21,448 bases of DNA from positions 1 through 21,448 of the IMG/VR virus record IMGVR_UViG_3300018420_003474; one strand, written 5' to 3'. The position numbers and the translations under genes are program-made. The stretch is from a virus. The notes under the pieces were generated by a model, which saw nothing but the letters and a program-made list of their open reading frames with translations, had not been told where the DNA came from and did no database searches. How positions within the stretch are numbered: position 1 is the first letter of the stretch; every line of letters begins with the position of its first letter. Below, piece by piece: positions 3,191 through 21,448 of this stretch.

Positions 3191-6100
3191 TTATACCTGA
3201 AGTGCGTATGCTCTAAGACTTGAAGTTTTAGGTATCACTGCTGTATTATTGCTTAGGTGAACCACTTTGATTGCAAAATACTTAAATCCAGTGTGAATAA
3301 CAGTTGACTTGGTAACACTACCGAGAACTGCTGCTACTGAAGGACTTCCTCCAGATAAAGTAGCAGTAACAGTTCCTGTATAGTCTCGCCCTGGATTAAC
3401 TATACGAATTTCAGTTACTACATCACCGGTCAATATTGCCTCAGCAGTTGCACCAAATCCAGTACCAGCATCGTCAGTTAGGGTTACAGAAGGTGCGCTT
3501 GTGTAACCCGAGCCGCCGGAAGTAATCGCTACCGCAGATATCCTAGTCACATCATATTCTAATACTCCGGATCCGTTAACACCCCAACCAGACGCCTTTG
3601 CAGGAATCTTATAGGAATATTCTGCCGTTGATTCAGTAGCGACAAAGGGAGATTCGTCTATAGACAACTGTTTCCAAACTATTTCACTCAAGAAATCTGC
3701 ATCATCTTCAGCATTCATTGCTTTAGCATATACTTCAACAGAAGTGCCAGAAGGGATAGCATTATCTAAGTAGACTTTAAGGTCTTCTGCATCCTGTCCT
3801 TCAGCTAGAACTACTTGCCTTGTGATATATTTAGAACTAGCATCTCCCCCTACTGCGGTTTCTTCTGTTGTGCTTGTGTTGTTTATGTCGTTAATAAGCG
3901 CCAACATATCTAAAGAGGACATATCTATCATAGGTCCGACATTGTTTGATGTGGTAGAAAGAGTAAATTTCAGCCTACCAGTTTTCTCGCCTGAGTAATT
4001 AGCCTGTTCGTTTGAATAGCTATAGATAGTTTTTTCTTCAGATAGCTCCTCAGTTGAATTTACTCTAGCATTTCCATAAACAGTATTTGCACTTGCAGCG
4101 CCTGTCTTAGTTAATGCAGATTCAACAGCAATAGAGCCTCTAGAATCAGGATTTATAGTTGCAGCTTGTATAGCATGTGCGCTCACTGCCCTATTGTTGA
4201 TAGATTCGATGTCAACAAATGTTGTGCCGTTTCCTATCATATCGCCTACAGCAAAATGCCCATCAGTAACATCTAATTCGTATGTAGAGTATCCTCTATC
4301 AAAAAACTTGTTGATTGCACGATTCAATCTTGCAGTCACTGCTGCGTTGGTAGTTGGTGTTCCGCCACCGGTAAAAGCTATAGTTGGGGCTGAAGTATAA
4401 CCAGAGCCAGGATTTGTCAAAGTAATAGCTGTTACTGCTCCCCCTGCTTCAGTTGCAGTTGCAGTAGCACCTGTGCCGCCGCCACCTGAGATTGTTACTG
4501 TAGGAGCAGATGTGTAACCTGCGCCGGCTTCATCAATGGTAAAAGTAAATCCATGAATCACATCTTCTCGGCTAAACTTAGGTGTTGGAATATTTCCGCT
4601 ACCATCTTGAGTATCATCCCAAGTGTTGCCATCTACTTTAATCCAATCAGTGTTTTTATTTGTAACATTGAGAATATAATCAGTATTAGCTTCAAACTTA
4701 GCCCTTCTCAAAACGAACATCAAATCTTCAGATTGATGTGCTGACCAGCTTCTATTGTTAGCAGAAGTAAATAGTACGCCGCCGTGAGCTTGTTTAGTAA
4801 TTCTAGTAGTTGTTCCGACCTCAAGCTCTCCCAATTCTCCTATCCAAACTTCATATCCAGGATCATCTGCATCCGGAATGAGAACCATACAGTATTCTGT
4901 GTCATTGTCTAGGTGAACTGGGTTTTTGAATTTGAAGTTAGTACTTGCATACTTTACTGTGCCATCGCTTTCAATGGTTGAAGTATAACAATGAGACCTT
5001 CTCATATGAACTTGTCCGTTCGGAACTATAGTAGTTCCTGGAACACCATTCACAACTTCTCTTATTTGTAAAGTAATACCGTTGTTATTTTCTTCTGCTG
5101 AAATTGATCTAAAGAAAATGTCTGCTGAAGTAATAAACATTCCGCCGGGCATTCCTTCAACAAAAAATGTTTGTGCTAATGGGTCTTTGCCTCTAAATGA
5201 AGTACCAGACTCAGAACAAAACAGGTCAAATTCGTTGAAATCAAAATCAAATGCAGAAGCAGAAACGGAAACTAATGAAGGATCAGTAGTTGCATCGTTT
5301 AACGAATCAGTAAAAGGTGTTGTTATTACTGGTATATTAGCTGTAGACGCTCCGCCTGATAAATTGCCCACAGTAATTGAATGATTATCAAAAATATTCC
5401 AATCGTCTTGGAGGTTGTCATAAATTACTAAATCATTTTCATCAGAATAATTAGCAACAGTTACAACATGTACACCGCCAGTATTGGAGTCAATATTATT
5501 ATTTTCATCATTAATAATCACTTCATTTACTGCTGCTTGTTTTGGCACAGTAGTTTTAGTACTAGGGTTGTAAGTAGTTCCAAGTTCTGCTAAAACACTC
5601 TTATTTTGAACAGTTATGTTGTCATTATAGAGAAATGCTTCCCTGTCATCCATTTCATCTAAATAAGTTTCTCCTCTCCAATCTCTAAATTCATTGACAG
5701 TTACACCGTTTGACTGAGTAGTGGAAATCAAAACATCTGCAGGATCTAATTCGTCTGGAATTGCACCTGTACCGACTACTTGTCCATTTACAGTAATTAC
5801 TTCATTAGGAACTGAAGTATCTGTAACTTGAATAGTTTGTTCAGTATCATTACTATTAACTGTATTACTAAGAACATTTTCAGTAGTTATACTCCGAACT
5901 TGTGGAGTGATTGGAGTTGACGGCATTGGAGGTTTAGTTGCTTCGTATTCTTTAGAAACATAGGAAGCACTAAAAATTGCTTGAGCATAAGAAGATGCAC
6001 TATTAATAGATTCTGTATTAGAAACTTGTACTACAATATCACCTGTTCTAAATTCGCTGCTGTGAATATCGATACTAAAAGTTGCTCTTCCATTAGAGTT

Positions 6101-9100
6101 TGTTGTAACATTGCCTTTTCTGACTCCCCCCATGACAACCATATGAGCCGAGTTAGGCAATAATCCTTCAACTGTGCCTGATATAGTAAGTGGGCGAACA
6201 AATGTGTCTACTGTAAGCGTAGTATTCTCTACTGTTTGTATCTGTGAACCTTCCCAGACCCAATCTCCGCCTCTTTGTTGCCAAACAGTGGTAGAATTAG
6301 CAGGAATAGTTGTTTCATTTATCCAATCAACACCGTATTCTTCTTCTGTTTCAAAAACTCCGTAACCAAAATCAGGATGTTCTGTGCCAATGCTTGTACC
6401 TACTTGCTCCCAGGCTCCCCAATGTATAGACCAGCCCGAAGTAACACCTCCGTTTGAGGTTAAATTTCCTTGACTTAGGTTATCATATTGTCCATTGTCA
6501 TTTTCATAAGGCTCTGGCGCAGCATGTTGGTCATAGAAAGAATCTGAGGATGGATTAAGAGACATACTACCATTATATTTACCAACAGGAACTGCGGGAG
6601 GCGTAATAGAAGCTCCAGAATCATTTATAGTTACTGAAGTCGAAACTCCTTTTCCATCAAGAGTCAGGGTCAATGTTTCCGCAGATTCAGTCACCCCATC
6701 AGAAGCGATGACCAAAGAAAGAAAGCTGTCTCCTGCAGAATCTATTGTAAAGTTGCCCGTAAGAGCAGCACCATTTATGTCTGCTGAAGAAACCCCTGTA
6801 ATAGTATAAGGAACCAGTGTTCCTGAAGAAACATTATCTGTCTCTAAAGTTATAGTAAGAGAATTTCCCTCATTGATAGAAGTACTGGACCTAACTAAAG
6901 CATAAGAAGGCTGACCAATTGCAACTGGTACTGGAGGTGCTGGCACTACAACAGGAGTAGATATTGAAGCTGGTGTATCAAATAATAATTCACCTACGAC
7001 ATTTCTATATTTGCTTGCCTGCATTTGTTTCGCATAGATAGATTCAAAATAGGGAACATGAAACATGTCTCCTGTTTGACCTACAGTTGTTCCTGTAGAA
7101 TCTGCTTTAAATCCAACAACACTCGACTTAAACGCTGCCCTAAGTTCACGGTTTTTAGTGTCTATAGAACAATTATTATCTTGATGTGTTACATTATTAA
7201 CACTAAAACCTGTAAACGAATCTACAACAAACCCATTCTTGAATCTATCAACTCCATTAGCATCTAATATTTTAACTTCTCCGGCTTGTTTTTCTAGCAG
7301 AGTAAGTGTGGTATAGTATTCAAGATTTGAAATTCTTTGTTCAAGCCCTCCAATATCACTCATCGTGTATCTTTTATTCTTTTCTAAGCGAATAGATACT
7401 GCTAAATCAGGGCGACCGTAAAAGGTTGCTGCTTGCTTAGATAGACAAGGATACGGTGGAAGAAATCCTTTAGCTAAAGTCATTGACCTATTAGGGGCTT
7501 CAGGTGTTTTAGGATTCAGTTCGGGTATGCTCTTAACTACCTTAATTTTACTATCTTCTGTAATAACAACTCTATACGCTTCAGCTAAATAATATTCTAA
7601 ATCTGTTGTGAAAGTTAGAACTGGAACTGGATTGGTTAGGCCATTTGAAGGTCTGTCAATAGATTCTAAGATACTCGGATTTTCAGTCGCACCTGCTAAA
7701 GTAGTAGAATCTGCTGCTGTGTTTGACATGTAAGGTCTAAAATCAATAGCATTTTTTAAATCAAAAACGCCGCCTGTAGAAGAACTATACAAAGGAATTT
7801 CTTCTGTCTTAATTCCGGTTGATCCAGTATCGTCAACCGGATATGAGTCTACACAAGCAAAAGTAGGACCAGAAACAGTTCTGCTAAAGTAATCGACTTT
7901 TACCGTGATGTATCTGTAAGTTGTTTCATCAAAAGTACTAGTGGCTCGTTTTTGAATTGACCCCAAACCATAGAAATTGTCACGCTGTCCGTTATCTACA
8001 ATGAATTCACGGGTGACATCTCTGACATTAGTTTCATAATCAGATTGATCTGTTGCAAGAATTTGCTTTACTTTAAATATGTCACTTATACCAATAGAAT
8101 ATTTTCCGCTTGCTGAGTTTGTATTGGTAGTGGCATCTATTTTAACTAATCTATCTTTGTTTAGAACTTTCGCAAGAGGAGATGTATCAGATGATTGCAT
8201 ATTTACAAAAAGTCTAACATTTCGATTTGCGTCTAGGATAGTAGTTCCTAAATCAATAGTCAACGCAGTTTCACTTGTTTGAGATACTGTCCCTGTAAGT
8301 GGAATTACTTCTCCCTCTGCATAGGCCGTAGAATCAACAGTAAATGAATCAGTAGCAACAAGAATCATGTTAGCTTCAACAACTGAGTCTGAAACTGAAC
8401 CATTTCCAAAGAAAAAAGTCTCGTTTGCTATGCTTGAACTTACATTTATTACAGCATTGGTATCAGCAGATATGTCAAATTCTTTAGTAAATTTAAAGTT
8501 ATAATCATATGCAGAAGAATCTGCTTGTAAAGTTTTGATGTGAGAATACGGAAGGTTCCATATAAGTTTATTGAAATTTGTTTCGTAAACTTGTGCATCT
8601 CCAGCAGAATTCAATACGATGTCAGCAAAACCATTTGCGGCTGTGCTTGGGTAATATATACCTCGTACTTCAGTGAAGTCTCCAACAGACATTTTGATAT
8701 CATATAGATACAATTTGTATTGGGCTGCTGATGTGCCTGCTGTACCAGAGTCTAATACGATGTGTCTAGTTTTAGCAGTTCCAACTTTATTTCCTGTTAC
8801 ACTAGTCGCAGAAAAATTGCCGCCAGATACACCGTTCTGAACTGTGTCATATAAATCTACAACACCTGTTCCTACAGAAAGATCGCCACCGTCAACATCC
8901 CATGCACCACATACATCGTCTACTAATACATAATTACCGAAAGAAGTTGACTGTGATACAGTTTCTTCAATTCTAGTAGCAGAAGGCTTATCAAAAGGAA
9001 TAACCTTTTCTGCTAATAATTCAATAGGATAGCCTGCAACATTAGCTTTACCTGGACGAATAGTCGCAACTAATTTAGTAGCAAGTCCACCTTGACCTGA

Positions 9101-10117
9101 AGGCAGTTGACCATTATTTTTTCCGTCATCTAGATGTTCTCTAAAAAAGCACTGCAAGCCTTCAATCGTATAATTACCATTCGCATTATACGCTCTTTCA
9201 GCCATCACGGAGCCTAGTTGTCCGAGTTGGTCTGTTTTAATATTTGATCTTATAATTTGACCAAACTGCCAAGTGGCATATCGATAGAAGTTTTCAGGAA
9301 TAGTATCTGTATTAGTGTATGACTTTAGTGATACTGTAAACTGTAGTCTATCGGCTCCGGGTGCATTGTAATTATATGAACCATTTGCAGGATCTAAGAG
9401 TGTATTATCATCTGTTGACTCAACGACCTGCTCTGTAACTAGAAACCCGATTTTTTTGTCAACTAAGGGAGTATAAGCATCAACAAAAGTAGATATTTCA
9501 GTAGTTCGTATAAAAGCTCCACGGGCATAGATAATACCAGGAGACAAAGTTACATGTGAAGCAAGACCAGAATATCTTTCTCGTGATCCTATTGCAGCAG
9601 ACGCAGAATTAAATGTAACAAATGTATCTCCGCTGAGAGTAGTATCTAAAGACTCAACAGTAAGGGTTTCTCCCATTGAAAATTCTTGAACGCCAGCAGT
9701 ATTTGTACCTGCTCCTTGATCTATATAAGAAATATACAGAGTTTTTGTATCAGGACTGTCACCTTGTGTACCAGTTTTGGTATGAACTACTTTAGCCTTC
9801 AGACCAGTTGTACCACCAACTAGGGTAGCACCCACATAATTAGCGAGTGTTGAATTTACTATTGTTGTGCCGCCGAAGTCACTATCGTTTACTTTGATGT
9901 ATGAAAGTCTTGTAATTTTTTCTTCGCAGCCGCTAATTATTGCGCCTGCTTTGAGATTATAACTTCCTAGTTGACCTAATTGATCCGATAGCGCACTTTG
10001 AAGCTGGGTAAGCTCTCTAGCTTGAACAGCGACACCAGGCTTAAACAATACCCGGTTGTAATTTTTTGTGCCGTCAAAATCGTCAAAGTACGGAGATGCA
10101 TTTAAATTGAGAGCCAT
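3191..10117 (-). CDS. Giant baseplate/tail virion structural protein (2308 residues)
   Basis: The N-terminus ([20 protein letters not shown], then [20 protein letters not shown]) matches, from memory, the DUF4815-type structural proteins of marine T4-like phages. Residues 1-1050 carry this region. A Pro-rich linker (about 1050-1070) leads to a Calx-beta-like domain (about 1070-1170; [14 protein letters not shown], then [16 protein letters not shown]). A beta-rich segment follows (about 1170-1400). [15 protein letters not shown] near 1644 opens a jelly-roll-like region, to about 1820, of the kind seen in cyanophage baseplate proteins. GxGYT modules lie near 1860-1912 and 2190-2260. The start ATG has AGGA 7 bases upstream, overlapping the gp8 stop. 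By order it holds the position of T4 gp9/gp10 but is far longer than T4 gp7 (1032) or gp10 (602). It probably forms the outer baseplate and attachment platform; the exact T4 equivalent is uncertain. Confidence 0.8.
3310..3540 (-). repeat. GxGYT module pair near the C-terminus of the giant protein
   Basis: [20 protein letters not shown] followed by an Ala-rich strand, then a weaker second unit ([18 protein letters not shown]). The pair lies about 50 residues from the end of the protein, just before a final strand-rich segment. Confidence 0.7.
4375..4550 (-). repeat. GxGYT module pair in the giant structural gene
   Basis: Two consecutive Gly-rich units, about residues 1860-1912: [20 protein letters not shown] followed by an Ala/Thr-rich strand, then [18 protein letters not shown]. 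The units closely resemble those in gp8 and in the gp7-position protein of this window. Confidence 0.8.
6620..6905 (-). other. Calx-beta-like domain in the giant structural gene
   Basis: About residues 1070-1167. It contains [20 protein letters not shown], then [21 protein letters not shown], and [16 protein letters not shown]. The order (an 'EG' entry, a Thr/Leu strand, 'DI', a 'G.ftID' strand, then 'D...E..E.l.l.L') is the usual Calx-beta pattern, a calcium-binding Ig-like domain found in adhesins. A Pro/Val linker separates it from the N-terminal part. Confidence 0.6.
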
Positions 10118-10126
10118 TTATCTTTC

Positions 10127-11719
10127 CTAAAAATTAAGTACTGTTTTAATTGTTTCAACTTGGTCTGATGATCTATTGATCGGTGACTTATTTTCAACAT
10201 AAACAATATCACCTGAAGTTACATCTATTTCTGGGGATGTAACACTATTTATACTCAAACCAGTAAGACTTTTCGTAGTATTCGCCAAAGTACTTGAAGC
10301 AGTTATTAGACCAATAATTGGTTGTAAATATATGCTATAGGTACCAGAATCAGTTTCTGCTATGTGACTGACTGTAAACTGTCCACCATCGTCGGTAGTA
10401 ATATTATCATCAACTGCATAGTTAGAGTTATCAGCCACATCAATTACATAAGAAGCAGTGGCTGTATTATTAGTCCATATTGCTTCGCTTGAGTCTCTAA
10501 GATTTTTGATTAATCCTATTTGTCTAAAATCGTTATCAAGTATCAAATCTTCATTAGTATTTTCTGAAATAGAAACTACAACTCCAATAGAACTTGCAAA
10601 AAGTTCTTTTACTGGATTTGATCCGTGACCATTTATTGGAGAAACTATAGCTCTCGCAACAGCATTTGTGCCAGATCCTACGGCTTGAGTAAATGACACA
10701 TTAGCAAATGTATATCCAGTTCCTCTATCCGTAACCTCGATTGCTGTAATAGCTCCAGTGTCAGGAGCTATTGTTGCTGTAGCTACAGCCCCTGTACCAT
10801 CACCAGTTATAGTAACAGTAACATCATCTGGGGTGTATCCTTGCCCAGCATTAGTAATTTCTATCTTATCTACAGTTCCTTTAACAGCAGCAGTTTCTAC
10901 TGCTTGCTGCAAAGCAGGCAGTGCATCTGCATCACCTAAAGCAATTGTTGCTTCAGCGCCTGTTCCGCCGCCGCCTGAAATTCTAGCAAGTGCAAAAGTA
11001 TAACCAGACCCTTGAGTATCTAGTGTAATACTAGTCACTGCATCTCCAGTTATTGTTGCAGTTGCAGAGGCTCCTTTACCATCACCAATAATATTTACTG
11101 TGGGAGCACTAGTATAACCACTTCCGCCTGCGGTTACAGTAACACTATCTAGCTCGCCATTAACATCGTGTGTTGGATTGCCCGTGAGTTTTCTTACAGG
11201 AATGTGTTCTGAGTCTAAGAAAGCGGTTTCATCAGCAGCAGATACTTGAAACAAAAACTTCCAAGTATAACCATCAGTAGTTGAAAAAGTATTAGTACTA
11301 GTATCAGTAGGCTTTTGAGAAACTGTTGCATTGCTATTATTATCAATACACTTGTAAACTTTATTTTCGTCAGTAATCACATAAAAGTTAGCATCTGCTA
11401 AAGTAGTAGCTTCTGAGTTAGAAGGTCTTGTTGAAGAATAATCATCGTCATATGAATCATAGACAGTACCAGACACCCAGTCTATCCTTCTAGCTAGATG
11501 ACAAACATTAGCAGAAGTAATTAACTGAGTGAAAAGTATGTTTCTTCTATAATCTCTAGTGAAAGTCTCGGAATCTACAGGAGTCGGCGGTGCTTCGTCA
11601 TCATCCCAAGCACCAGTTTTTCCTAGAGAAAAATGAAAATAATCATTTTCACTATTCACATCTCTGTAAAATGACCGAGCGATTTCAACCCGTCCTAACT
11701 TTGTAAGTAAAAGAGCCAC
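10127..11719 (-). CDS. 8: Baseplate wedge protein gp8
   Basis: The ends match T4 gp8 by eye: FHFSLGKTGAW near 28-38 (T4 has a similar GRSEPW segment), VYKCIDN near 120, DGYTWKFLFQVS near 148-159, and the C-terminus YVENKSPINRSSDQVETI, against T4 YMENRPPIIMAMDQTEEI. T4 gp8 is 334 residues; this one is 530. Most of the extra length is four GxGYT modules at about 190-365. gp8 is a dimeric part of the T4 baseplate wedge that joins gp7 and gp10 with gp6. The start is GTG at 11719: an in-frame TAG lies 9 bases upstream, there is no ATG nearby, and AGGT precedes it at a usable distance. It follows the 147-residue gene after 13 bases. Confidence 0.88.
   Translation of the reverse strand: MALLLTKLGRVEIARSFYRDVNSENDYFHFSLGKTGAWDDDEAPPTPVDSETFTRDYRRNILFTQLITSANVCHLARRIDWVSGTVYDSYDDDYSSTRPSNSEATTLADANFYVITDENKVYKCIDNNSNATVSQKPTDTSTNTFSTTDGYTWKFLFQVSAADETAFLDSEHIPVRKLTGNPTHDVNGELDSVTVTAGGSGYTSAPTVNIIGDGKGASATATITGDAVTSITLDTQGSGYTFALARISGGGGTGAEATIALGDADALPALQQAVETAAVKGTVDKIEITNAGQGYTPDDVTVTITGDGTGAVATATIAPDTGAITAIEVTDRGTGYTFANVSFTQAVGSGTNAVARAIVSPINGHGSNPVKELFASSIGVVVSISENTNEDLILDNDFRQIGLIKNLRDSSEAIWTNNTATASYVIDVADNSNYAVDDNITTDDGGQFTVSHIAETDSGTYSIYLQPIIGLITASSTLANTTKSLTGLSINSVTSPEIDVTSGDIVYVENKSPINRSSDQVETIKTVLNF
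10640..11155 (-). repeat. Four GxGYT modules inserted in gp8
   Basis: Units at about residues 190-365 of gp8: [60 protein letters not shown] and DRGTGYTFANVSFTQAVGSG. Each is followed by an Ala-rich strand and an 'AIT' or 'SIT' turn. T4 gp8 has no such block, so this is an insertion relative to T4. Confidence 0.8.
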
Positions 11720-11732
11720 TATTTTCTACCTA

Positions 11733-12176
11733 TTAAGAAATTGTGATGGTCCAAGTAACTGTCATAGTATCGGCAGCACCTTTATTAATTACTGAAAATA
11801 AAGTACGACAAAGAAGTGTGCCCGCAGATGAAGCATTGAGAATACCAGCTTCAGTCAAAGCACCTGTTCCAGTTCCTGCAGGGTATGTAGCAACATAAGA
11901 AATTGAAGCACCTGTTACAGTAGAAGAATCTAGTGCAACACGAGCAGATTCGGTCTCAAGTGCAGTATCGCCTGAAGCGGCTGCTGTAGTTCCTGTACCA
12001 ACTGCCATATGACTCATAGCAGTTGCAGTAGCATCCTTCATACGAGAAGAAATATAGTTAAGTCCAGTATCAACTACTAGATTTGGAACAGTAAAGTTTT
12101 GAGAAACTCTACCGTCTTCGCCACGGACAACGACATTAACGCTGCCAGTAGCTTTCAATTTATCTTTTTTAATCAT
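11733..12176 (-). CDS. Small virion-structural-type protein (147 residues), function unassigned
   Basis: The sequence has the pattern KATGSVNVVVRGEDGRV, then VPNLVVDTGLNYISSRM, then MSHMAVGTGTTAAASGDTAL, then ALTEAGILNASSAGTLLCRT and a final strand WTITIS. I recall this pattern from small structural proteins of many tailed phages, where it is mostly unannotated. It is beta-rich, with no signal peptide or membrane segment. The start at ATG 12176 has GGAG 9 bases upstream. It is the only gene in the window preceded by a real intergenic gap (70 bases). It lies between the gp7-position gene and gene 8, which T4 has side by side, so it is an insertion relative to T4. A role on the baseplate periphery is inferred from position. 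Confidence 0.75.
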   Translation of the reverse strand: MIKKDKLKATGSVNVVVRGEDGRVSQNFTVPNLVVDTGLNYISSRMKDATATAMSHMAVGTGTTAAASGDTALETESARVALDSSTVTGASISYVATYPAGTGTGALTEAGILNASSAGTLLCRTLFSVINKGAADTMTVTWTITIS

Positions 12177-12246
12177 TTTATCCGTCTCCGGTAATTTTGT
12201 TTTATAAAAAATTCATTACAATATATATAATAAATTTTAAAGTATT
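12177..12246 (-). promoter_or_regulatory. AT-rich 70-bp gap with a weak late-promoter-like element
   Basis: This is the longest non-coding stretch in the window. On the minus strand TTATAAAAC (12199-12207) resembles but does not match TATAAATA. A start 6 bases on would leave a leader of about 15 bases with the GGAG site at its 5' end. A run of alternating A and T lies further upstream. I see no GC-rich hairpin with a T run, so no terminator is called. Confidence 0.25.
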
Positions 12247-14298
12247 TTATGGGTTTAAGACTGCTGAAAACACTTCAGAAGTCGCTGCTGTTTCAGTAAA
12301 AACTTTTCCTATTGATTTAAACAATCCTGATCCAGTGTAACCTGGTGGCAAGTATTCACCTTCAACATACTCTTGTGCTAAGCCATCTTCTATAGTAACT
12401 ACGTCTGTAGTCATTTCTCTATTAAGGGCTACGCTAAAGTTAGAAACAGTATTTAATGTTTCGTTTATTGTCCTATCCCATTGCACTACTATTGTAACAG
12501 CATCAGTTTGTGCAACAAGGTCTTCAAACTTAAATATTTGTAAATTGATACCATCTGTTTCAACACTTATGAATGGAGCAAAATTTACGTTATTACTAAT
12601 AATCAAATCACCAAATACTTCCATTCCAGCTGGGTGAAGTAATTTCTTATAATTAGTAACCCATTCTTTTTGTGGTCTTGATGATTTAACAATATACGAA
12701 TATTTTTGAAACTTAAAATTATCTTGAAGTCTATTTACATCAGATAGTTTACCTCTATCATCTTTGTATTTTCCTTCATTATTATATAAGTAACCAGTAG
12801 TAAGTACTACGTCTAAAGATTCCCCTGTTTTGGAAATAATCTGTATTGTAGATACTTCATTAGTATAACCAGAGCCAGAGTTTACAATAACCCATTTGGT
12901 TGGTTTATTAGTAGAATCTACTGCTTCTACACGAATGACTGCACCATTTGATGATGCTGCATTAAAGTCTTCGCCAAAATAACCAGGCAAAGCATAAGGC
13001 TCTCCATCGGATCCATCTTCATTGATTGTGAATACGTCACCTACAGAAAACCCTGCATCTGTCCCAGAGTAAGTGCCAGAAACTACTGAAGTTAGAGTTC
13101 TTCCTAAGTAAGCCTTTGCATTAGCTGTAGTTCCTGCTTCATCTCTAAGAACAATAAATGTTCTAATATCAGATACATCAAAAGAAACATTGACAGTACC
13201 AGAATATCCAGAACCACCATCTGTAACAGTGATTGCTGTTATTTCTCCGTCTTCTACTGTTGCTGTAGCAGTAGCGCCTGCTCCGCCGCCTGTGTCAGTG
13301 ATGACAACATTCGGTGCAGCATAATAACTATAGCCCCCCGAGGTAACTGCAATACTTGACACTTCTCCGCTAGTTATAGTAGCAGTTGCGGCTGCCTGAG
13401 CACCGGGGCCAATTATATCTGTAACATTTGAAGGAACTTCTAGTACAATTTCGTATTCTTGTGGTGCAGAGTATGCAATTTTCAACACTCTTGTGACTGA
13501 AATTGGTATTGTTTTTGCTACAGTAATAGAGCCTGTCGTTTCGTAGTAAATTACATCTGCTAATAATCCTGAAAGATTTGCTACTTCATAACCATTGGCA
13601 GCGGTGGCTCTTACTGATTTTTCTTCTACCCAAACACCATCAGATGCTCTAAGTATATTTTTACTGGGATAGAATACATCAATCTCTTCATTATATACTA
13701 GTTTGAAAAAGGCTCTTATTGATCTTTCAGACCCCTTTGATTCAAATATAGATTTTATGTTTTTATATAAGTGTTTCCTGTCCGCCTGTACTGCTTGAGG
13801 GAAATCTACAGCTAATTCTTTTGCCCACTTATTAAGTTCTGCATCATTTGCATCATCAATATCAAAATAGTTTTTATTCAGAAGCAAATTTATAGGATTA
13901 TCTGCTTGATCCATGTATTCATAATACTTTTCAATGAAAGTTACGAATTGAGAATGATCTTCTCTTATGAATTCTGGCAAAGAGTATTTTATATTTAAAC
14001 TGCTCTTTTCGTCATACTCTTGTGGTATACCAGCAGCAGTTGAAACGATTGCAGTAAGCTCTGCTCCAGATCCTCCGCCGCCGGTTACAGTCACTGTAGG
14101 AGCAGATGTATAGCCAGATCCAGAATTTAATACAGTGACAGTTTGTACGGTACCATTGAAGATTGCAACTTGAGCAGTGGCACCTGTACCTCCGCCACCA
14201 GTGATAGTAACAGTAGGCACAGTAGTGTATCCACTACCAGCAGCGGTAATTTCTATGGAAGAGATATACCTATAAAAAGATGGAATTTGATCCGACAT
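12247..14298 (-). CDS. Baseplate wedge protein in the gp7 position
   Basis: A 683-residue protein directly after gp6, with TAATG stop/start overlap, where T4 carries gene 7. A conserved-looking core lies at about 95-215: [40 protein letters not shown], then [20 protein letters not shown], recalled from unnamed structural proteins of marine T4-like phages. GxGYT modules occur at three places: two units at 16-83, two at about 310-370, and a partial one near 465. The C-terminal third includes [19 protein letters not shown] and [16 protein letters not shown]4 gp7 is 1032 residues, and I cannot see direct similarity, so the gp7 label rests on position. A role in the wedge is likely. Confidence 0.65.
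13190..13390 (-). repeat. Internal GxGYT module pair in the gp7-position protein
   Basis: About residues 310-370: a diverged unit ([20 protein letters not shown]) and a second ([14 protein letters not shown]). These are less regular than the N-terminal pair, which suggests an older insertion. Confidence 0.65.
14040..14260 (-). repeat. GxGYT module pair at the N-terminus of the gp7-position protein
   Basis: Residues about 16-83 hold two units: [20 protein letters not shown] and [20 protein letters not shown], each followed by an Ala/Val-rich strand. They begin only 15 residues after the start, before the conserved core, so the module looks added at the front of the protein. Confidence 0.8.
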
Positions 14299-16211
14299 TA
14301 ATAGCCTGCATTATCTTCTGTTACTGTAATATCCAGACCTTTTCTTGATCCAACTTCTACGTTATAAGAACTATCGTCAATGGTTAAAATTGTGTTGTTT
14401 GACGGTCTAGCCACTACTGCACTGGTAGAAACTTCAGAGTTCCTAGAAAGAATATTAGTTTTAATGTCGTTAGAGTCATCATGTGGGCGAGTACTTACTC
14501 TAATCGAAGTTTCTGTGCCAAATAATGATGCCACTGTCATAGAAGGAATTGTAAGTTTTCCTGTCGTATAATCTATCGTACCGATAGAAGCAAGCTGTGT
14601 TCCTGCGGTGTCTACTAGAAATAAAGAACCAGTACCGTTGTATTCTGGTGGCACAACTGTAGAAGCAGGTACGTCTTTTATTTTTACTTTATTTGTAGTA
14701 GTACCAATAATTGCATTGAACCAAGTGCTATGCAATTCTCTTGGCTGAATTCTACTATTGAAAGTAAATGTATAATTGTCTGTTGTTCCAAGAACAGTGG
14801 GGGTCAATCTTTTTTGTATAGTTGGTGTGATATTGACAGAAACAATAGAAGGCGATACTGCTTTAATATCATCATGTACTTTAGAATAGTAAAAATTCTT
14901 ATTCAACTGATTCAAATTTTCAGTGAAAAAAGTATTGACTGCCGCGGATACTGCATCACTTATTTGACCTGAAGTCAAGGTAGTCAAATCGCTATTAAAA
15001 GTCACACCAATTTTAAGTCCAATAAATTGATATATTGGATCAACAAATTCTGGTAAAATAGCAACTGGAGCTTTTGGATTTACTATCTCAGTAACAATTC
15101 TATCTTTATCTGCTTGTGTTACTACTTGTCCTTCAACGGGGTCAAGTGATATAAAAACTTTTCCGTATATCGGAGGATCATTATTTTCTCCTCCCCAAAC
15201 CGAAACAGATTGAATGTTGGGATTACTAGCTAATATTAGACTTTTATAATCTCCTGAAGAAACTGCACGTTCTTTAGTTGCATTATATAAAGGTGCAGTT
15301 TTTCTTATACTATCAATGCTTTCTCTAGATGCACCGCCTGAAGCCACCGCAGTTTTTGTAGAATCAAATGTCTTTACTTCATTTGAACCAGTCAAAGAAG
15401 CCGCACAGGTAAATGTTTTACATAAATTGGCATCTTCTCCATTTGAAACAATATAATCTATCAGAACTATATTACCGTCAACTAGCTTTTCGCCAAGAAC
15501 CCCATCACCAAATCTAATGACATATTTACCATCTACGCCTTCTTCCAGAAAATATACTTTAGTGGTACTTGTCAAATCCAACAAAGAAGATTTAGCCGTG
15601 AATGTATTTAAAGTCAACTCAGTAGTTGAAGTTTGTACTCTAACTCTGAGAGTAGTAGTATCAATGTTCTCGTTAGGTATTGTAATAGGACCTGAAAGAT
15701 TAGAAGAGTCAATCAAGAAACTATTGTCTACTCGTGTTCCTTCTTTGAGTACTAATCCGGAAAACTTGAATCCGTCCGTTCCATTTATGTCTTCTAGAGT
15801 AGCTGTTTGTGTCTGATTTGGATAGAAATTAAAGCTAGTATTATTAACAGTAGACGTAAAAATAGTGTCTCTTGTCAGAGAATACGTTGTACCAACATAC
15901 GCTGGATCTGGAGTTATTACAAAATCAACACTAGCAGTAGCTGCTCTCCTCGATCTTGGGGTGTAACCAATAGCCTTTGCTAGAGATACAACAGAACTTC
16001 TTTTAATTGCAGAATCTAAAAAAGATTCATTGGCTAACATGTGAGCCATAACAGCATTATAATGTGTATTATAGGCAAGGGTATCTAAAAGAACAGATAG
16101 AGCTGAACCTTCAAAATCATAATCACTAAACTCACTCTGCGATTGCATAAAGGTTTTGAGAGATTGTTTTATATTATCAAAATCTAATTCTGTTACGTTT
16201 AACTGTGCCAT
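14298..16211 (-). CDS. 6: Baseplate wedge protein gp6
   Basis: A 637-residue protein, close to T4 gp6 (660). The N-terminal region (about 30-100) has [20 protein letters not shown], then [20 protein letters not shown] and [10 protein letters not shown], the hallmark of the gp6/baseplate-J family. A middle part has [10 protein letters not shown] near 232 and [13 protein letters not shown] near 327, both typical of J-like proteins. In T4, gp6 dimers join the wedges into the ring around the hub and bind gp25 and gp53. The start ATG 16211 has AAGG 7 bases upstream, overlapping the gp25 stop. Its stop shares one base with the next start (TAATG), consistent with coupled translation. Confidence 0.92.
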
Positions 16212-16215
16212 TGTC

Positions 16216-16620
16216 TTACCTTAACCTTTTTAGATTAGCTGTTAGTGTTTGCGGTTTATCTGTACCAACAACAAAATATCTCAGTGTAATATCATATGAA
16301 TTATCATCATAATTAGCAACCACTAATAATGATTCTATTTTTGCTCTGGGTTCATACGTTTCTATTAGGTTTTTTATTGTGTTTTTGATTACCCCTGCCA
16401 ATATATTTGACATAGGTTCAAACAAATATCCCCTAAGATTCGCTCCCTTTTCAGGTTCAAATGGTCTCTCATAAAAGTTAGTTCTCATAAGAATATTCAA
16501 AGACTGTTTAACAGCATTGACATCTAATTTTTTAGATACATCGCCTGTCACAGGATTCGCAGTAAAATTCAAATCCAAATCTTTGTATATTCTTGATACT
16601 TTTAATGATTCTGTTGCCAT
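16216..16620 (-). CDS. 25: Baseplate wedge protein gp25
   Basis: A 134-residue protein, near T4 gp25 (132). The GPW/gp25 pattern is clear: VKQSLNILMRTNFYERPFEP (about 37-56), GANLRGYLFEPMSN, and YEPRAKIE near 90, the conserved EPR motif of the family. gp25 sits at the centre of the wedge, where it contacts gp6 and gp53 and the first sheath ring; it is shared with type VI secretion (TssE). I see no Shine-Dalgarno sequence in the 23 bases between this gene and the previous stop. Those bases instead contain a perfect late-promoter element. Confidence 0.95.
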   Translation of the reverse strand: MATESLKVSRIYKDLDLNFTANPVTGDVSKKLDVNAVKQSLNILMRTNFYERPFEPEKGANLRGYLFEPMSNILAGVIKNTIKNLIETYEPRAKIESLLVVANYDDNSYDITLRYFVVGTDKPQTLTANLKRLR

Positions 16621-16643: not shown

Positions 16644-17279
16644 TTATATTCCTATTAAATCTGGTATATTGACATTTACAAAATTGCCAGACGCATTAGC
16701 ACTCTTTTTAACTGCATCAATTCTATAAGGAAAATCAACTATATTAGGAATGTTTATACCTAATATATTAGCAATAGGACTATCTGTCGGAGTTGAAATT
16801 GGGGCTCCTTTTAAAACAAACCCAGCGCCATCTTCTTCAAAGTTAGGTATTTTTTGACAAAGGTTATTTAAGTCCAATGCTCCTGTTTTTAATAAATCAG
16901 GAATGTCTTCTATTGCAATATCGCCTAAATCCAACCCACTATACTTTGTCTGTAAGTTATTGATTTCATTGGTAATATCGTCTACTGATAATTTTGCTGC
17001 CAGAAAACTAGAAGCAAAACTTTCAATATCAGCTTGCAATCCTTTTATTTCTTCTGGCACTTCAATCTCAGGTACATATTGTTTTAATTTTGATGTAACA
17101 AGTTCTTGTATAGCCTGTGCATCAGTAGCCATATCTATTATAGCAGCAGCGTCGGTAACTGCCTGACTTACTGTAGGTGATATTGGTATTTTATCAAACA
17201 AAGTGCCAACTAGCTCATCAGTTGAACCTATTGACTGAGTTAGTTCTACTAAATTTTCAGTTGCGCCACATAAACTCAT
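16644..17279 (-). CDS. Unassigned protein between gp5 and gp25 (211 residues)
   Basis: I do not recognise a family. The protein is acidic and largely helical: DELVGTLFDKI near 20-30, AAIIDMATDAQAIQELVTSK near 45-65, and likely coiled-coil regions at about 80-115. The last 60 residues (VLKGAPISTPTDSPIANILG, ending FVNVNIPDLIGI) are richer in Pro, Gly and hydrophobic residues. There is no signal peptide or membrane segment. The start ATG 17279 has AAGGAG 6 bases upstream, overlapping the gp5 stop. T4 does not have an equivalent here. I recall an unnamed gene of about this size between gp5 and gp25 in marine T4-like phages. Its position among hub and wedge genes suggests a spike or hub partner; this is inference. 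Confidence 0.65.
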   Translation of the reverse strand: MSLCGATENLVELTQSIGSTDELVGTLFDKIPISPTVSQAVTDAAAIIDMATDAQAIQELVTSKLKQYVPEIEVPEEIKGLQADIESFASSFLAAKLSVDDITNEINNLQTKYSGLDLGDIAIEDIPDLLKTGALDLNNLCQKIPNFEEDGAGFVLKGAPISTPTDSPIANILGINIPNIVDFPYRIDAVKKSANASGNFVNVNIPDLIGI

Positions 17280-17289
17280 TCATGTCTCC

Positions 17290-18798
17290 TTAAGGTGTAG
17301 GTGTACCTGAGATGCCGCCGCCAGGAGTAACACCCAAGTGCTTATGTGTGCCAAGAACAATAGTACCTTGTTGAACTATTGATCCCGATACTGTTCCTGT
17401 TACTGTCAATGCACCTGTTATGTTATATGCCCCAGTATGCGTTGTGACGCCTGTTATAGTTCTAACTGGAGCAACTACTGTCTGTGAAGTAATCGCTGAC
17501 AGAGTTTGTGTAGTACTCGCCTCTACAAGCTGTACTGAGGCAGTTAGTGTTTGATTCAAAGCAGCAGACAATGACATATTCAAACCAATAGCTTTGAAGT
17601 TGCCTGTAGGCGCACTTAAATTTACATTACCAGTAGTACTCATCAAAGAGTAACCGAGTATTGCAGTACTTGAAGTTGAACCAACTGAAACTGAACTAAA
17701 ATTACCACCAACGGTAGAAACTTTATCGCCGCCTACAGTTTCAGTTCTATTGCCTATAACGGTGTCTGTTTGATTGCCGCCTGTGCGAAAAGAATGATCT
17801 CTTGAGACATTAGTACTTTGCCCTGAAAGAACTTCAGTAAAATCATTACCTACTACTTTAGTAACACGATTGCCTGCAACTGTAGTAAACAAGTTTCCAC
17901 CTATCTCTTGATACATATCTCCTGTCACTAAAACTCTTGCATCACCGCCTATTGTGACATCGCACGAACCCTTGACAAAAACTTTTTTGTCTTTCAGTGT
18001 TATTTCGTATTCGTCACCGACTACCTTTGTGATCTTTGAACCATCTGCTTGCACTTCATAAAAGGTTCCTGCAGAATGATATTCGTGTATTCTTTCATTA
18101 TTGGGCGTGTCATCTATTTCAAAAACATGTCCGCTTTCTGTTTCGTTTACTTTGTTATATGGATAGACTGAACAATTATTATCAAAATTAGGTTCTTCGT
18201 TTGAAGCATTGTATGTATAACTATTTTCTCCAAATCTTGGATGTGGTTCTTCCCAGATCTCTCTGTCATAAGTCGCACCAGAAATGTCAGAAGAAACTGA
18301 TTCTACATGGGGTGCAACTGCTCTCGGTATTGCTTCTTGTCTGGCTGCTCTCTTGTTTAACAGACTGGCATGTGTTTCAGCATCAGCATTTCTTGCTAAT
18401 CTTGATAGATCAGATTCTTGTAGTTCATTTAGACCCACATCCGGCTCACTTCTTGGAAATATACCGTCAGGGTCAGAGAAGCCTACATTCTCATCAACAT
18501 TTTTGTTTCTTGGTTTGCCTCCTAAAGTACCTACAATAACAGGCTGCTGCCCCTCTTCCCCGTCAGCAAAGAAGCCTAGCACAGTTGATCCCTGAACATA
18601 GGCAGGAGTATCACCTACTCCAGATATGCTCGGAGAAGTCGTAGGAGAGACAGGAACAGCCCATGGCAGATCAACAGTTGGTAAGTCTTGTTTAGACGAG
18701 GTGTGATATCCGATAATTCTCACTCGGCACCGGCCGAGCATTGCAGGATCCACCCTGTCTTCTACGACACCTATCCACCAATTAAAATTAGGATACAT
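17290..18798 (-). CDS. 5: Baseplate hub/spike protein, gp5-like, without lysozyme domain
   Basis: 502 residues from ATG 18798. The N-terminal OB-fold domain (about 3-95) shows WWIGVVEDRVDPAMLGRCRV, LPWAVPVSP, and VLGFFADGEEGQQPVIVGTL, typical of gp5/gpV/VgrG. A linker (about 95-230) follows where T4 gp5 carries its lysozyme; none is seen here. From about 255 to 370 a beta-helix is built of VxG-type octapeptides (VTGDMYQEIGGNLFTTVAGN and following). The C-terminus ends GTHKHLGVTPGG, with His485 and His487. The trimeric spike would pierce the outer membrane. A longer frame opens at TTG 18822, but AAGGAG lies 9 bases before ATG 18798 and sets the start there. The gene overlaps the gp27-like gene by 11 bases. 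Confidence 0.88.
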   Translation of the reverse strand: MYPNFNWWIGVVEDRVDPAMLGRCRVRIIGYHTSSKQDLPTVDLPWAVPVSPTTSPSISGVGDTPAYVQGSTVLGFFADGEEGQQPVIVGTLGGKPRNKNVDENVGFSDPDGIFPRSEPDVGLNELQESDLSRLARNADAETHASLLNKRAARQEAIPRAVAPHVESVSSDISGATYDREIWEEPHPRFGENSYTYNASNEEPNFDNNCSVYPYNKVNETESGHVFEIDDTPNNERIHEYHSAGTFYEVQADGSKITKVVGDEYEITLKDKKVFVKGSCDVTIGGDARVLVTGDMYQEIGGNLFTTVAGNRVTKVVGNDFTEVLSGQSTNVSRDHSFRTGGNQTDTVIGNRTETVGGDKVSTVGGNFSSVSVGSTSSTAILGYSLMSTTGNVNLSAPTGNFKAIGLNMSLSAALNQTLTASVQLVEASTTQTLSAITSQTVVAPVRTITGVTTHTGAYNITGALTVTGTVSGSIVQQGTIVLGTHKHLGVTPGGGISGTPTP

Positions 18799-20158
18799 CT
18801 GAGGTATCTCCTTCAAGAGCAACCTTTTCTGGAGAATCTTCGTATCCGTTTTTAATAAGTTCGGTAATCATGCTGTGCCTAGTTGAATCAAATTTATGGT
18901 GAATAGCTGATATAATGTAAAATCCAGAGAGAAGAGGATCTAATACTGTAGATAAATCTTCTCCGGGTGCTTCAGCAGAAGGATACAACAGACTTATTAC
19001 ATTTCCCACCTGTATATCTGTTCTACCTGGAAGAACCGCTTCAAATTTATTATTATCAAAAGAATTTAAATAGCCTTTTCTGTTTAATTTATTGGTAGAT
19101 ATATTTGAAGCAGCAGAACCAGAGGGCAATTCTTTTTCTTCAGTAATACCAAAATCACTAAACAATCCAGTATTATGTGATTGAAAAGTCTTATGCGCCC
19201 TAGGGTCTTTTAGCAATGTGCTAGGTATAATACTTTTGCTTCCAGTTTTCACAAAATCAGGAAAATCAAAATCTGAAGATACATTAATAACTTTTTTGGT
19301 ATAAAAGTCGTACCCGTCTATAGAGGCTGAAAAGGCTCCTTTATTGTTTCCATCAAGAACATCTATAGTAGTCAACATTTTCAAGTCTTCTATTGCTGTA
19401 ACTGAATCCGGCAATCTGTTTCCAGTATAACCAACATCAGTTATTCTTCTTGGCATATTAGCACCATTTCTTTCTAATACATATTCGTCAAATACTCCGT
19501 TCAACTGAGATTGTATTAGTCCTTCAATACTGGCGAAATAAAATGATTGATTTGATTCAAAGAATAGATAATCCGATCCTTTCAATTTGCTGCCCTTTGC
19601 AGTCTTTGATATAAAATTCATATTTCTGAAAGGAGACCAATGATTTGAAGTATATTTTATTCTACTTGTATGTGGAGTATCTAAGATAACTAATGGTCTA
19701 TCATATTCAATATAGTCTTCGTATATTTTTTGTGCTATTTCATCAGTTGGTCCGCTGAATGCTTTTGTCACTACTGATGTTGTGTTCTCATACCCCTCAA
19801 TTGACATAAAAGAAATATTGTAATATTGTGATCTATCATCGTTCAAAACTCTATCATATATCGCATATATTTGAAATGTTTTTTCAATTACATTTCCGGG
19901 AATGTCTTCTAAGGTGGGTGTCCTAACTTTTATAGTAATATATTCATTACCAAGAATAGGAAAATTACTAATCAAATTAGCAGCATCAGCTACGATGAGA
20001 TTCCCTGTCATGCAAAAGGAAAATATATCTTCATATATATTAAGCTCCAACATAAATTCAGTTATGTCGGCACTAGCACCACTATTTTGACTAGTAAGAT
20101 TTAGTGACTCTAGTTTATATTCACCTGCATGAATTAGAGTCTCACTTGAAAAATCCAT
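18788..20158 (-). CDS. 27: Baseplate hub protein, gp27-like
   Basis: A 456-residue protein between gp53 and gp5. The N-terminal part (about 15-130) has ESLNLTSQNSGASADITEFM, then LELNIYEDIFSFCMTGNLIV and an ISFMSIEGYEN strand; these are tube-like beta domains as in gp27/gpD hub proteins. A middle part (about 170-230) has NHWSPFRNMNFISKTAKGS and a DYLFFESNQSFYF segment, recalled from hub proteins of marine T4-like phages. The last part has GRTDIQVGNVISLLYPSAEA and SGFYIISAIHHKFDSTRHSM, typical of the final hub domain. T4 gp27 is 391 residues. It forms the trimeric torus that joins spike to tube. The start ATG 20158 lies 3 bases after the gp53 stop, with no strong ribosome site. Family inferred from position and pattern. 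Confidence 0.8.
   Translation of the reverse strand: MDFSSETLIHAGEYKLESLNLTSQNSGASADITEFMLELNIYEDIFSFCMTGNLIVADAANLISNFPILGNEYITIKVRTPTLEDIPGNVIEKTFQIYAIYDRVLNDDRSQYYNISFMSIEGYENTTSVVTKAFSGPTDEIAQKIYEDYIEYDRPLVILDTPHTSRIKYTSNHWSPFRNMNFISKTAKGSKLKGSDYLFFESNQSFYFASIEGLIQSQLNGVFDEYVLERNGANMPRRITDVGYTGNRLPDSVTAIEDLKMLTTIDVLDGNNKGAFSASIDGYDFYTKKVINVSSDFDFPDFVKTGSKSIIPSTLLKDPRAHKTFQSHNTGLFSDFGITEEKELPSGSAASNISTNKLNRKGYLNSFDNNKFEAVLPGRTDIQVGNVISLLYPSAEAPGEDLSTVLDPLLSGFYIISAIHHKFDSTRHSMITELIKNGYEDSPEKVALEGDTSDVS
18808..18813 (-). promoter_or_regulatory. Ribosome binding site fixing the gp5 start
   Basis: The minus strand reads AAGGAG, 9 bases before ATG 18798 and inside the end of the gp27-like gene. 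It supports the ATG over the upstream in-frame TTG at 18822, which would place this site inside the coding region. Confidence 0.8.
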
Positions 20159-20161
20159 AAT

Positions 20162-20662
20162 TTAGACGACCATCAATTTTTTGTAATTGGCAATAAATCT
20201 AGAAATATATTCAGGTTTTAGTAAGAAAATTTGCCTCTTGCTTTGATTTATGTCTAACTCATAGTTGTAGTTAGTCACCGGCTCTATTTCGCTTATTTTA
20301 CTAGGATCATAATCAACTGTTATGTCTTTATTTGCAATAAGACGATAATGATGTGTAAAGTTTGCATTGCCTGTGCCGTATTTTGATTCAACAAAATCAA
20401 GTAGTTCTTCATCTCTTTTAGGCCATTCTTCATATGTATCTACAATATCATTAACAACCAATATGATCCAATGATATTTAGAAGAACCATACACGTTATT
20501 AGAAATTATATCAGGAGTTTCTCCATTTTTAATATAATGTGATTCTAACGCTAGTCTGTTGTTGATTTGTCTATCTAACCCAACACGCCTGAAGATGTCT
20601 TTGGTTACAATAGTTTTTTCATCTACTTTATAAGTTATTTTAGGCATAGCTTTAAAAAACAT
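20162..20662 (-). CDS. 53: Baseplate wedge protein gp53
   Basis: A 166-residue protein, somewhat shorter than T4 gp53 (196). A LysM-like part is clear: YIKNGETPDIISNNVYGSSK followed by YHWIILVVNDIVDTYEEWPK (about 43-82). The gp53 family has the same order of 'G.tPe.ia...YG...yhWvil..N'. In T4, gp53 clamps neighbouring wedges around gp6 and gp25. Its ATG overlaps the stop of the gp48-like gene by one base (TAATG), consistent with coupled translation. A second ATG at codon 6 exists but lacks a ribosome site. Confidence 0.9.
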   Translation of the reverse strand: MFFKAMPKITYKVDEKTIVTKDIFRRVGLDRQINNRLALESHYIKNGETPDIISNNVYGSSKYHWIILVVNDIVDTYEEWPKRDEELLDFVESKYGTGNANFTHHYRLIANKDITVDYDPSKISEIEPVTNYNYELDINQSKRQIFLLKPEYISRFIANYKKLMVV

Positions 20663-21448
20663 TAGTAACCGTCCGCTATTCTTTCGTTAGTTAGTGTTTC
20701 AAGTTCAGTAAATGCTAGTTGCATGTTTATCTCAGCTGGAGCGCCGTTTTCACCTTTAATTGTAGTAAAAGCATCTTGATTTCCATATGTGATTTTAACA
20801 TCAGTCAATGCACAAGAAGATATCTTACTTACATGAGGATTTTCTTTTCCTTTGTAATGATATTCTATTTCAAACTCGGATGGATATTCTAAGAATAGTT
20901 TACTAGGAGAAACCTCAGGGTGCATATGATATTTAAATAATTGAATTATTCTCTGTACATTGCTGTATTCTTGTTTATTTCTCGGGTTGAATTTATAATT
21001 AAAAGCAAACTGTCTGAATCCCATGTTAGAAAATAGTTGTTCTTTATATGGATTGGCTACTTTGCTTGATGCTAAATCAATAGATGTTCCGAGTTCTCCG
21101 CCGATTCCTAGGGAGCCTGGTAAATTTGCAGCAGCTTTAATTGCTGACCTAGCTGCTAGAGGCCCAGCTGTTTCAAGTATATTACTGAAATTGATTCCCT
21201 CGTTAAAAACAGGATTGCCAGCAAGACCTGCTAGAGGCCCCAATTCTTTGTTTTCCCAATTTGCAGAATATTGAGAGACAGGAGGAGCTGAAACATAAAG
21301 TTCAATAGCACCTAATGTTCTAACTTTAGATATAGTTTCTATTATATTTTCTATATTTTCTGTCCCTTCTGCGGCAAGATATACACCGCCTGCTGCGGCA
21401 ATTGATGCTGCAAAAGGACTAGTTTTGCCGCCGACGAGTCTACCAAAA
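20662..21448 (-). CDS. 48: Tail tube cap protein gp48-like, 5' end outside window
   Basis: The frame is open to base 21448, so about 261 C-terminal residues are present. The first visible residues include GGKTSPFAASIAAAGGVYLA and LGAIELYVSAPPVSQYSANW, then MGFRQFAFNYKFNPRNKQEY and IIQLFKYHMHPEVSPSKLFL, ending ETLTNERIADGY. The 'F.F.f.P.n..E...v..II..fK.hM.Pe' pattern is typical of gp48 and its paralogue gp54. The Pro-rich 'lYvp...v.y...wen..lG' segment favours gp48. In T4, gp48 sits on the hub and starts the tail tube with gp54. A TTG at 21243 could be mistaken for the start, but it is in the middle of the conserved region. gp54 is the alternative. Confidence 0.82.
   Translation of the reverse strand, partial: FGRLVGGKTSPFAASIAAAGGVYLAAEGTENIENIIETISKVRTLGAIELYVSAPPVSQYSANWENKELGPLAGLAGNPVFNEGINFSNILETAGPLAARSAIKAAANLPGSLGIGGELGTSIDLASSKVANPYKEQLFSNMGFRQFAFNYKFNPRNKQEYSNVQRIIQLFKYHMHPEVSPSKLFLEYPSEFEIEYHYKGKENPHVSKISSCALTDVKITYGNQDAFTTIKGENGAPAEINMQLAFTELETLTNERIADGY

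Follow-up and report, generated by a model that had tools for sequence, protein, structure and literature searches.

The central spike encoded in the IMG/VR fragment IMGVR_UViG_3300018420_003474 is of the T4 contractile-tail type, and it probably carries a self-made metal apex of the P2/phi92 type that replaces the separate PAAR cap, the two types of tip having apparently been exchanged several times in this group of viruses. The sequence examined, hereafter the window, is the whole record of 21,448 bases. Its minus strand carries a T4-type baseplate operon, in which gp6 is followed by further structural proteins. The features of the operon are as follows.

20662..21243, minus strand: baseplate tail tube cap (Pfam T4_tail_cap 1.6e-5, PHROG 230 9.8e-48)
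20162..20662, minus strand: gp53 baseplate wedge protein (Pfam Phage_gp53 5e-11)
18788..20158, minus strand: tail protein preceding the spike gene, candidate gp27-type hub (PHROG 350 'tail protein' 9.5e-64)
17290..18822, minus strand: gp5-type central spike gene (Pfam Gp5_OB and Gp5_trimer_C; PHROG 430 1.8e-85; T4 gp5 chains 1.9e-40)
16644..17279, minus strand: 211-residue protein between the spike and gp25 (open reading frames of the window; homologues at this position in the L054/L061/L066 clade)
16216..16620, minus strand: gp25 baseplate wedge protein (Pfam GPW_gp25 2.2e-11)
16212..16215, minus strand: empty PAAR slot, a 4-bp gap between gp25 and gp6 (open reading frames of the window and comparison with relatives)
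14298..16211, minus strand: gp6-like baseplate wedge protein (Pfam Gp6-like_1st 3.5e-21, PHROG 219 2.3e-156)

The tail protein that precedes the spike gene is perhaps a gp27-type hub; the 'tail protein' at the same operon position in phiM12 is annotated with an HHpred match to gp27. Repeats of one type are common to three adjoining structural proteins at 3191-14298 of the window and also match many PHROG virion proteins, and DNA repeats lie within 10100-14400. One scan of genome contigs found no relative of the window.

The spike ORF comprises 510 codons from a TTG start, or 502 from the ATG at residue 9 (18796-18798, minus strand). Pfam searches assigned Gp5_OB (2e-18, 67.5 bits) and Gp5_trimer_C (6.8e-12, 46 bits) to the protein, above the respective cut-offs of 25 and 30.9 bits, and Gp5_C scored slightly below its cut-off of 20.4 (0.0011, 19.4 bits). 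In T4, the OB domain docks on the hub. Residues 218-334 of the window spike align with residues 385-500 of T4 gp5, and the best Gp5_trimer_C stretch is 323-384. The lysozyme domain, which in T4 is placed between the OB domain and the beta-helix, is absent, and no lysozyme family is found among the Pfam matches of the spike at E<=1; according to its annotation, KVP40 also lacks this domain. AlphaFold2 monomer models were poor, both for the last 140 residues (mean pLDDT 56.8) and for the 502-residue protein (mean pLDDT 60.2). The parts of the spike, numbered in the longer frame, are located as follows.

18370..18699, minus strand: OB domain, residues 42-151 (Pfam Gp5_OB)
17671..18171, minus strand: trimerisation region of the T4 gp5 type with the beginning of the triple beta-helix, residues ~218-384 (T4 gp5 alignment, Gp5_trimer_C)
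17293..17361, minus strand: apex segment, residues 488-510, IVLGTHKHLGVTPGGGISGTPTP (Pfam Apex stretch 488-508 and aligned relatives)
17338..17346, minus strand: HxH motif His493-Lys494-His495 (31 of 31 complete relatives; codon variation synonymous only)

The C-terminus of the spike reads GTHKHLGVTPGGGISGTPTP, which confirms the claim of the earlier note that the protein ends in an HxH motif. The His485 and His487 of that note follow the ATG numbering and are His493 and His495 in the longer frame, encoded on the minus strand by CAT at 17344-17346 and CAC at 17338-17340. Fifteen residues lie C-terminal of the motif (counted on L001, which is identical to the window), placing it within ~30 residues of the C-terminus. 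In a single sequence, such a motif is only mildly unusual: when the protein or its last 130 residues were shuffled, HxH appeared within the last 33 residues in 1.0-1.3% of cases. It is therefore conservation that decides that the motif is more than chance. The relatives in IMG/VR comprise 33 loci, of which 31 have a complete C-terminus (the ends of L015 and L028 are incomplete), and HxH is present in all 31, including L001-L003, which are identical to the window over the spike. An alignment of 17 sequences, the window among them, shows both histidines in every one. Across 19 distinct ends, the two His codons vary synonymously only (CAT/CAC), while the codons directly after the motif change residue freely; among the relatives, the residues that directly follow HxH and the length of the preceding helix vary widely. 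Run by tblastn against 50,697 phage records, neither the last 131 residues of the window spike nor the C-terminal parts of L091 and L056 gave a match, with the proviso that low-complexity filtering may hide matches.

The end of the spike resembles that of P2 gpV. The Pfam Apex model (PF18946, 'GpV Apex motif') matched the last 140 residues with 21.5 bits, above its cut-off of 20.8, and the full-length spike with 19.1 bits (0.0014), slightly below it. At E<=0.1, the model found 5 of 24 HxH-type C-terminal fragments and none of 19 blunt spikes, the latter scanned at full length; it is insensitive for the HxH ends of T4-type spikes. A profile made from the last 60 residues of 46 HxH cluster representatives scored 24.2 bits against P2 gpV, over the last ~50 residues of gpV, compared with 16.8 bits for the best of the gpV shuffles (1973 of 2000 shuffles scored) and 0.7 bits for a blunt-end profile against gpV. 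A single hhalign comparison with P2 gpV was weak (probability 20%). P2 gpV ends IEHTGGELSSNGKVLHTHKHPGDSGGTTGSPL, with HxH near the C-terminus, a short Gly-rich tail ending near Pro, and an HTG upstream. The window spike likewise has an HTG upstream of HxH (TTHTGAYNITG...LGTHKHLGVTPGGG) and a Gly-rich tail ending near Pro, the stretch from HTG to the end reading TTHTGAYNITG...LGTHKHLGVTPGGGISGTPTP, although the distance from HTG to the motif is 31 residues in the window and 15 in P2.

Elsewhere, the window spike is T4-type (Gp5_OB, Gp5_trimer_C), has ~510 residues compared with 211 in P2 gpV, and belongs to a T4-type baseplate. The gpV-type N-terminal domain, Phage_base_V, gave no Pfam match on the window spike at E<=1. 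A PDB search with the full spike found no gpV chain at E<=1, and the PDB sequence matches of the last 131 residues at E<=10 included neither gpV nor a chain of the phi92 spike protein (gp138). As judged from its sequence, the spike as a whole appears to lie outside the P2 gpV family. The best sequence match of the last 131 residues was the 246-residue PDB chain 9zd7_P, 'tail tip gp86' (HTGNY...THKHGGVMPGGG, E 0.033), a weak and short match. The proposal that a T4-type baseplate has been joined to a P2-type tip, made in the earlier note, is thus supported by T4-type domains and neighbours on the one hand and by the GpV Apex match and the gpV profile score on the other.

According to PMC10715212, the spikes of P2, phi92 and R2 pyocin are tipped by iron sites of six histidines, and the P2/Phi92 tip resembles the PAAR cone. 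P2 itself gave no PAAR match in a whole-record Pfam search, and thus no separate cap is seen. In phage Milano, the gp27 spike has an HVH apex at which a density peak was read as iron (PMC10811340), and gp35 of the marine Bacillus phage ZY1, a protein of 183 residues reported as P2-like, has an HAH apex interpreted as an iron site (PMC11448403). The word PAAR occurs in the main text of neither the Milano paper (PMC10811340) nor the ZY1 paper (PMC11448403). Iron is also what PMC6116203 gives for the HxH sites of P2, phi92, R2 pyocin and T4 gp37. These precedents make it unlikely that a self-made tip uses its histidines mainly to lock the trimer, with zinc or some other metal bound there or no metal at all, even though T4 gp12 was crystallised with zinc in its HxH site, after reconstitution with a zinc salt (PMC6116203), and PAAR tips hold zinc (PMC10715212). 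HxH is also found within tail fibres (PMC6116203), so that the motif alone is no proof of a tip.

In T4, the tip of gp5 is formed by a PAAR protein, gp5.4 (PMC4576200). T4, KVP40, RB49, Mosig, and HTVC008M have the same OB and trimerisation domains and the same baseplate neighbours as the window, but they combine a blunt spike with a PAAR match, whereas the window combines an HxH end with an empty slot. A blunt end together with a whole-record PAAR match was found in T4, RB49, KVP40, PX29, D479, Astolliot, V45v66, ACP17, CP81, 207E48.1, HTVC008M, and Mosig. S-SSM5 is blunt and has a weak PAAR match under the cut-off, and S-CAM1 has a PAAR match and a blunt end on its second spike gene. P-TIM40 and ACG-2014j (blunt end on the second spike gene) are blunt and gave no Pfam PAAR match in the whole record; phiM12, SP1, Atu_ph04, and P-SSM2 have other spike C-termini and no PAAR match. 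None of the cultured T4-type phages in this set has HxH at the spike end, the set consisting of Mosig, Melnitz, and 20 hand-picked records (P2 and 19 T4-type phages) out of 2309 matching the spike. The open frame with the PAAR motif has 342 residues in Astolliot (L196) and 332 in Vibrio phage 207E48.1 (L211), so that the tip protein of these phages may carry a further domain.

In several blunt clades, a gap of 206-341 bp separates gp25 from gp6 and houses the PAAR gene (19 blunt loci, counting repeated records). In 82 of 86 HxH loci, the gp25 and gp6 frames overlap or are no more than 12 bp apart, and the gap is 378-402 bp in L055, L056, L057, and L060, which also have HxH ends. The slot of L055 and L060 holds an ORF of ~125 residues (MANKI...) unlike PAAR, and the gap of L056 and L057 is sized as that of L055. 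Ten blunt loci have PAAR elsewhere than in this slot; the gene lies ~6.7 kb downstream of the spike in Mosig, and ~17 kb and ~23 kb away in ACP17 and V45v66, respectively.

HxH ends and PAAR genes were found to exclude each other. The 247 loci and the window yielded 227 spike ORFs whose stop codon is visible, and the 224 that were kept form 132 clusters at 90% identity; PAAR was called in these locus and cluster counts with a profile made from T4-type PAAR proteins. Where both gp25 and gp6 were visible downstream, PAAR was present in 0 of 86 HxH loci and in 29 of 30 blunt loci, some records being counted repeatedly. Among informative clusters, defined as those in which gp25 and gp6 were seen or PAAR was seen, it was present in 0 of 45 HxH and 23 of 24 blunt clusters (Fisher p 2e-17, uncorrected for kinship). 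L105 has a blunt spike without a detected PAAR. The uninformative clusters comprise 1 HxH, 47 blunt, and 10 'other' clusters, the blunt ones being mostly Mosig-like, short contigs. V45v66, ACP17, S-SSM5, and P-TIM40 were uninformative, with gp25/gp6 outside the fetched stretch; when V45v66, ACP17, and S-SSM5 (PAAR in the whole record) and P-TIM40 (none) are added, the blunt count becomes 26 of 28. In an earlier count that covered only some of these data, PAAR was present in 0 of 38 HxH and 22 of 27 blunt. Whole-record Pfam searches agree: PAAR was found at E<=0.01 in 0 of 34 HxH, 7 of 11 blunt, and 0 of 5 other records (50 records in all), and, in a second set, in 0 of 22 HxH and 5 of 6 blunt records, with the L216 record giving no match and the end of L052 unclassified.

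Spikes classed as 'other' (15 clusters) were left out of the comparison of HxH and blunt ends. They include the OB half of Melnitz, phiM12, SP1, Atu_ph04, P-SSM2, the first genes of S-CAM1 and ACG-2014j, L072-L082, L107, and L148. Two apparent exceptions to the exclusion were rejected. Melnitz (L035, L037) seemed to combine HxH with PAAR, but its FHNHRR... is read as part of a peptidase-like C-terminal domain and not as a spike end; L035 and L037 were removed by hand from the cluster count, and L036-L039 were removed as sub-loci of records already included. V45v66 was taken as HxH under a looser rule, but its HIH is internal, and the spike, which ends RIDLNP, has a PAAR. In Melnitz (L035), a Methylophilales phage, two proteins make up the spike: the first is an OB protein, and the second has the beta-helix and an apparent peptidase-like end domain. 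The PAAR gene follows directly after the second protein. A third class of spike ends without HxH (L072-L077, L079, L082) reads DHTNATGPIGRTG... or RHDAGTDYSCSSDPAR... with a polar tail, and none of its 4 informative clusters has PAAR. It may represent an apex in which metal binding has changed or been lost.

Could the virus nevertheless encode a PAAR cap elsewhere in its genome, with HxH as a metal site of structural role close to the shaft end, beneath the cap? The window, which contains no PAAR, is a 21.4-kb fragment, Mosig, ACP17, and V45v66 carry PAAR outside the gp25/gp6 slot, and HxH sites are known inside fibre shafts (PMC6116203). We consider this arrangement very unlikely, in view of the absence of PAAR from all 86 HxH loci with gp25 and gp6 visible and from HxH records of 125, 170, and 137 kb (completeness not known). 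PF13665 (PAAR-like) had no match in any of 9 records, the window among them; PF14107 and PF19267 were uninformative as queries, since the control genomes gave no match. Furthermore, most spikes that go with PAAR have a short final strand (such as IDLN, IDIG, or INLN), unlike the window with its glycine/proline tail. These data favor a self-made apex that replaces the cap.

The raw counts come mostly from related viruses, and the tip label is strongly clustered on the trees. The negative association between HxH and PAAR could thus be a matter of shared descent only, old lineages each keeping their own tip without functional exchange. A tree of 74 spikes, namely the window and 73 cluster representatives, was computed on the OB and trimerisation region, which keeps the tip out of the comparison. 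On this tree, the tip type changes 8-9 times, with at least 6 of the changes on supported branches, and PAAR changes 7 times. In 6 independent pairs on supported branches, PAAR goes opposite to the tip in 6 of 6 pairs (160 of 200 random pairings) or in 5 of 6 (40 of 200). An independent pair with both traits going in the same direction never occurred in the 200 pairings (sign test, median p 0.031, range 0.031-0.063). Although the sign test stands on 6 pairs only, and a first tree (89 rows) gave 4 such pairs, too few for significance to be reachable, the repeated tip changes make descent alone highly improbable as an explanation, and so does the following pair of near-identical operons, which differ in the tip and in PAAR together.

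L093 has an HxH end and no PAAR, whereas L216 is blunt and has an ORF in the slot (5126-5386). In steps of 200 bases, the two are 90-99.5% identical from 1.5 kb upstream of the spike to about codon 430. Beyond that codon and into the beginning of the next gene, the identity falls to 54-91%, and past this exchanged block it is 96-100% over the next ~600 bases. L216 then has ~265 extra bases between gp25 and gp6, containing the 86-residue ORF, and the identity beyond is ~89-100%. By itself, the slot protein of L216 gave no Pfam hit; it is assigned as a PAAR protein because of its relatives. Its counterparts in L220 (94% identical) and L243 (65% identical) gave Pfam matches of 0.0056, a weak PAAR match, and 0.0067, respectively, and our own PAAR profile finds the L216 protein at 3e-5. 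H39 and H44 are invariant across 12 aligned PAAR proteins. A chimeric assembly as the source of the difference was rejected, as L216 and L220 (blunt with PAAR) and L093, L089, and L223 (HxH) derive from five different metagenomes, and each type is found more than once. In L093/L216, the gene at the place of the 211-residue protein of the window encodes 208 residues, its homology to that protein was not detected, and its first part lies inside the exchanged block. The 211-residue protein gave no convincing family match in Pfam or PHROG, and its homologues occupy the corresponding position in members of the L054/L061 clade with either type of end, HxH or blunt.

Based on these results, a working model of the tip can be proposed. 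Three spike chains would form a T4-type beta-helix that does not end bluntly. By analogy with the known hexa-histidine sites, each chain would turn His493 and His495 towards the axis, where the six histidines would hold one metal ion, most likely iron, and the last 15 residues, rich in glycine and proline, would form the point. Such a self-made tip would substitute for a separate PAAR cap (gp5.4 in T4), and contraction of the sheath would drive it through the outer membrane with the tail tube behind. A helix closed at its end by its own chains would have no need of a PAAR cap, and this would account for both the empty slot and the mutual exclusion. An exchange of tips would then require two coupled changes, namely replacement of the 3' part of the spike gene and gain or loss of a small PAAR gene, the latter between gp25 and gp6 in several clades. 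Since HxH ends are common among other T4-type viruses, exchange inside that group suffices, and no P2-like donor is required.

Both tip types are already known, and so is their structural likeness (PMC10715212). In the open-licence literature, surveyed by titles and the beginnings of abstracts, no HxH tip on a T4-type spike and no exchange with PAAR was found. Our results suggest that the tip of the T4-type spike is probably a swappable part with two interchangeable solutions, between which recombination has switched at two separate sites of the operon, several times and in near-identical viruses. A T4-type phage without a PAAR gene thus need not have a blunt spike. As near-identical baseplates occur with either tip, their functional equivalence is testable, and the question of why PAAR is needed becomes a comparison of two natural versions. 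If the tip has indeed been switched repeatedly, this suggests selection on the tip itself, for example by the outer envelope of the host or by periplasmic host factors.
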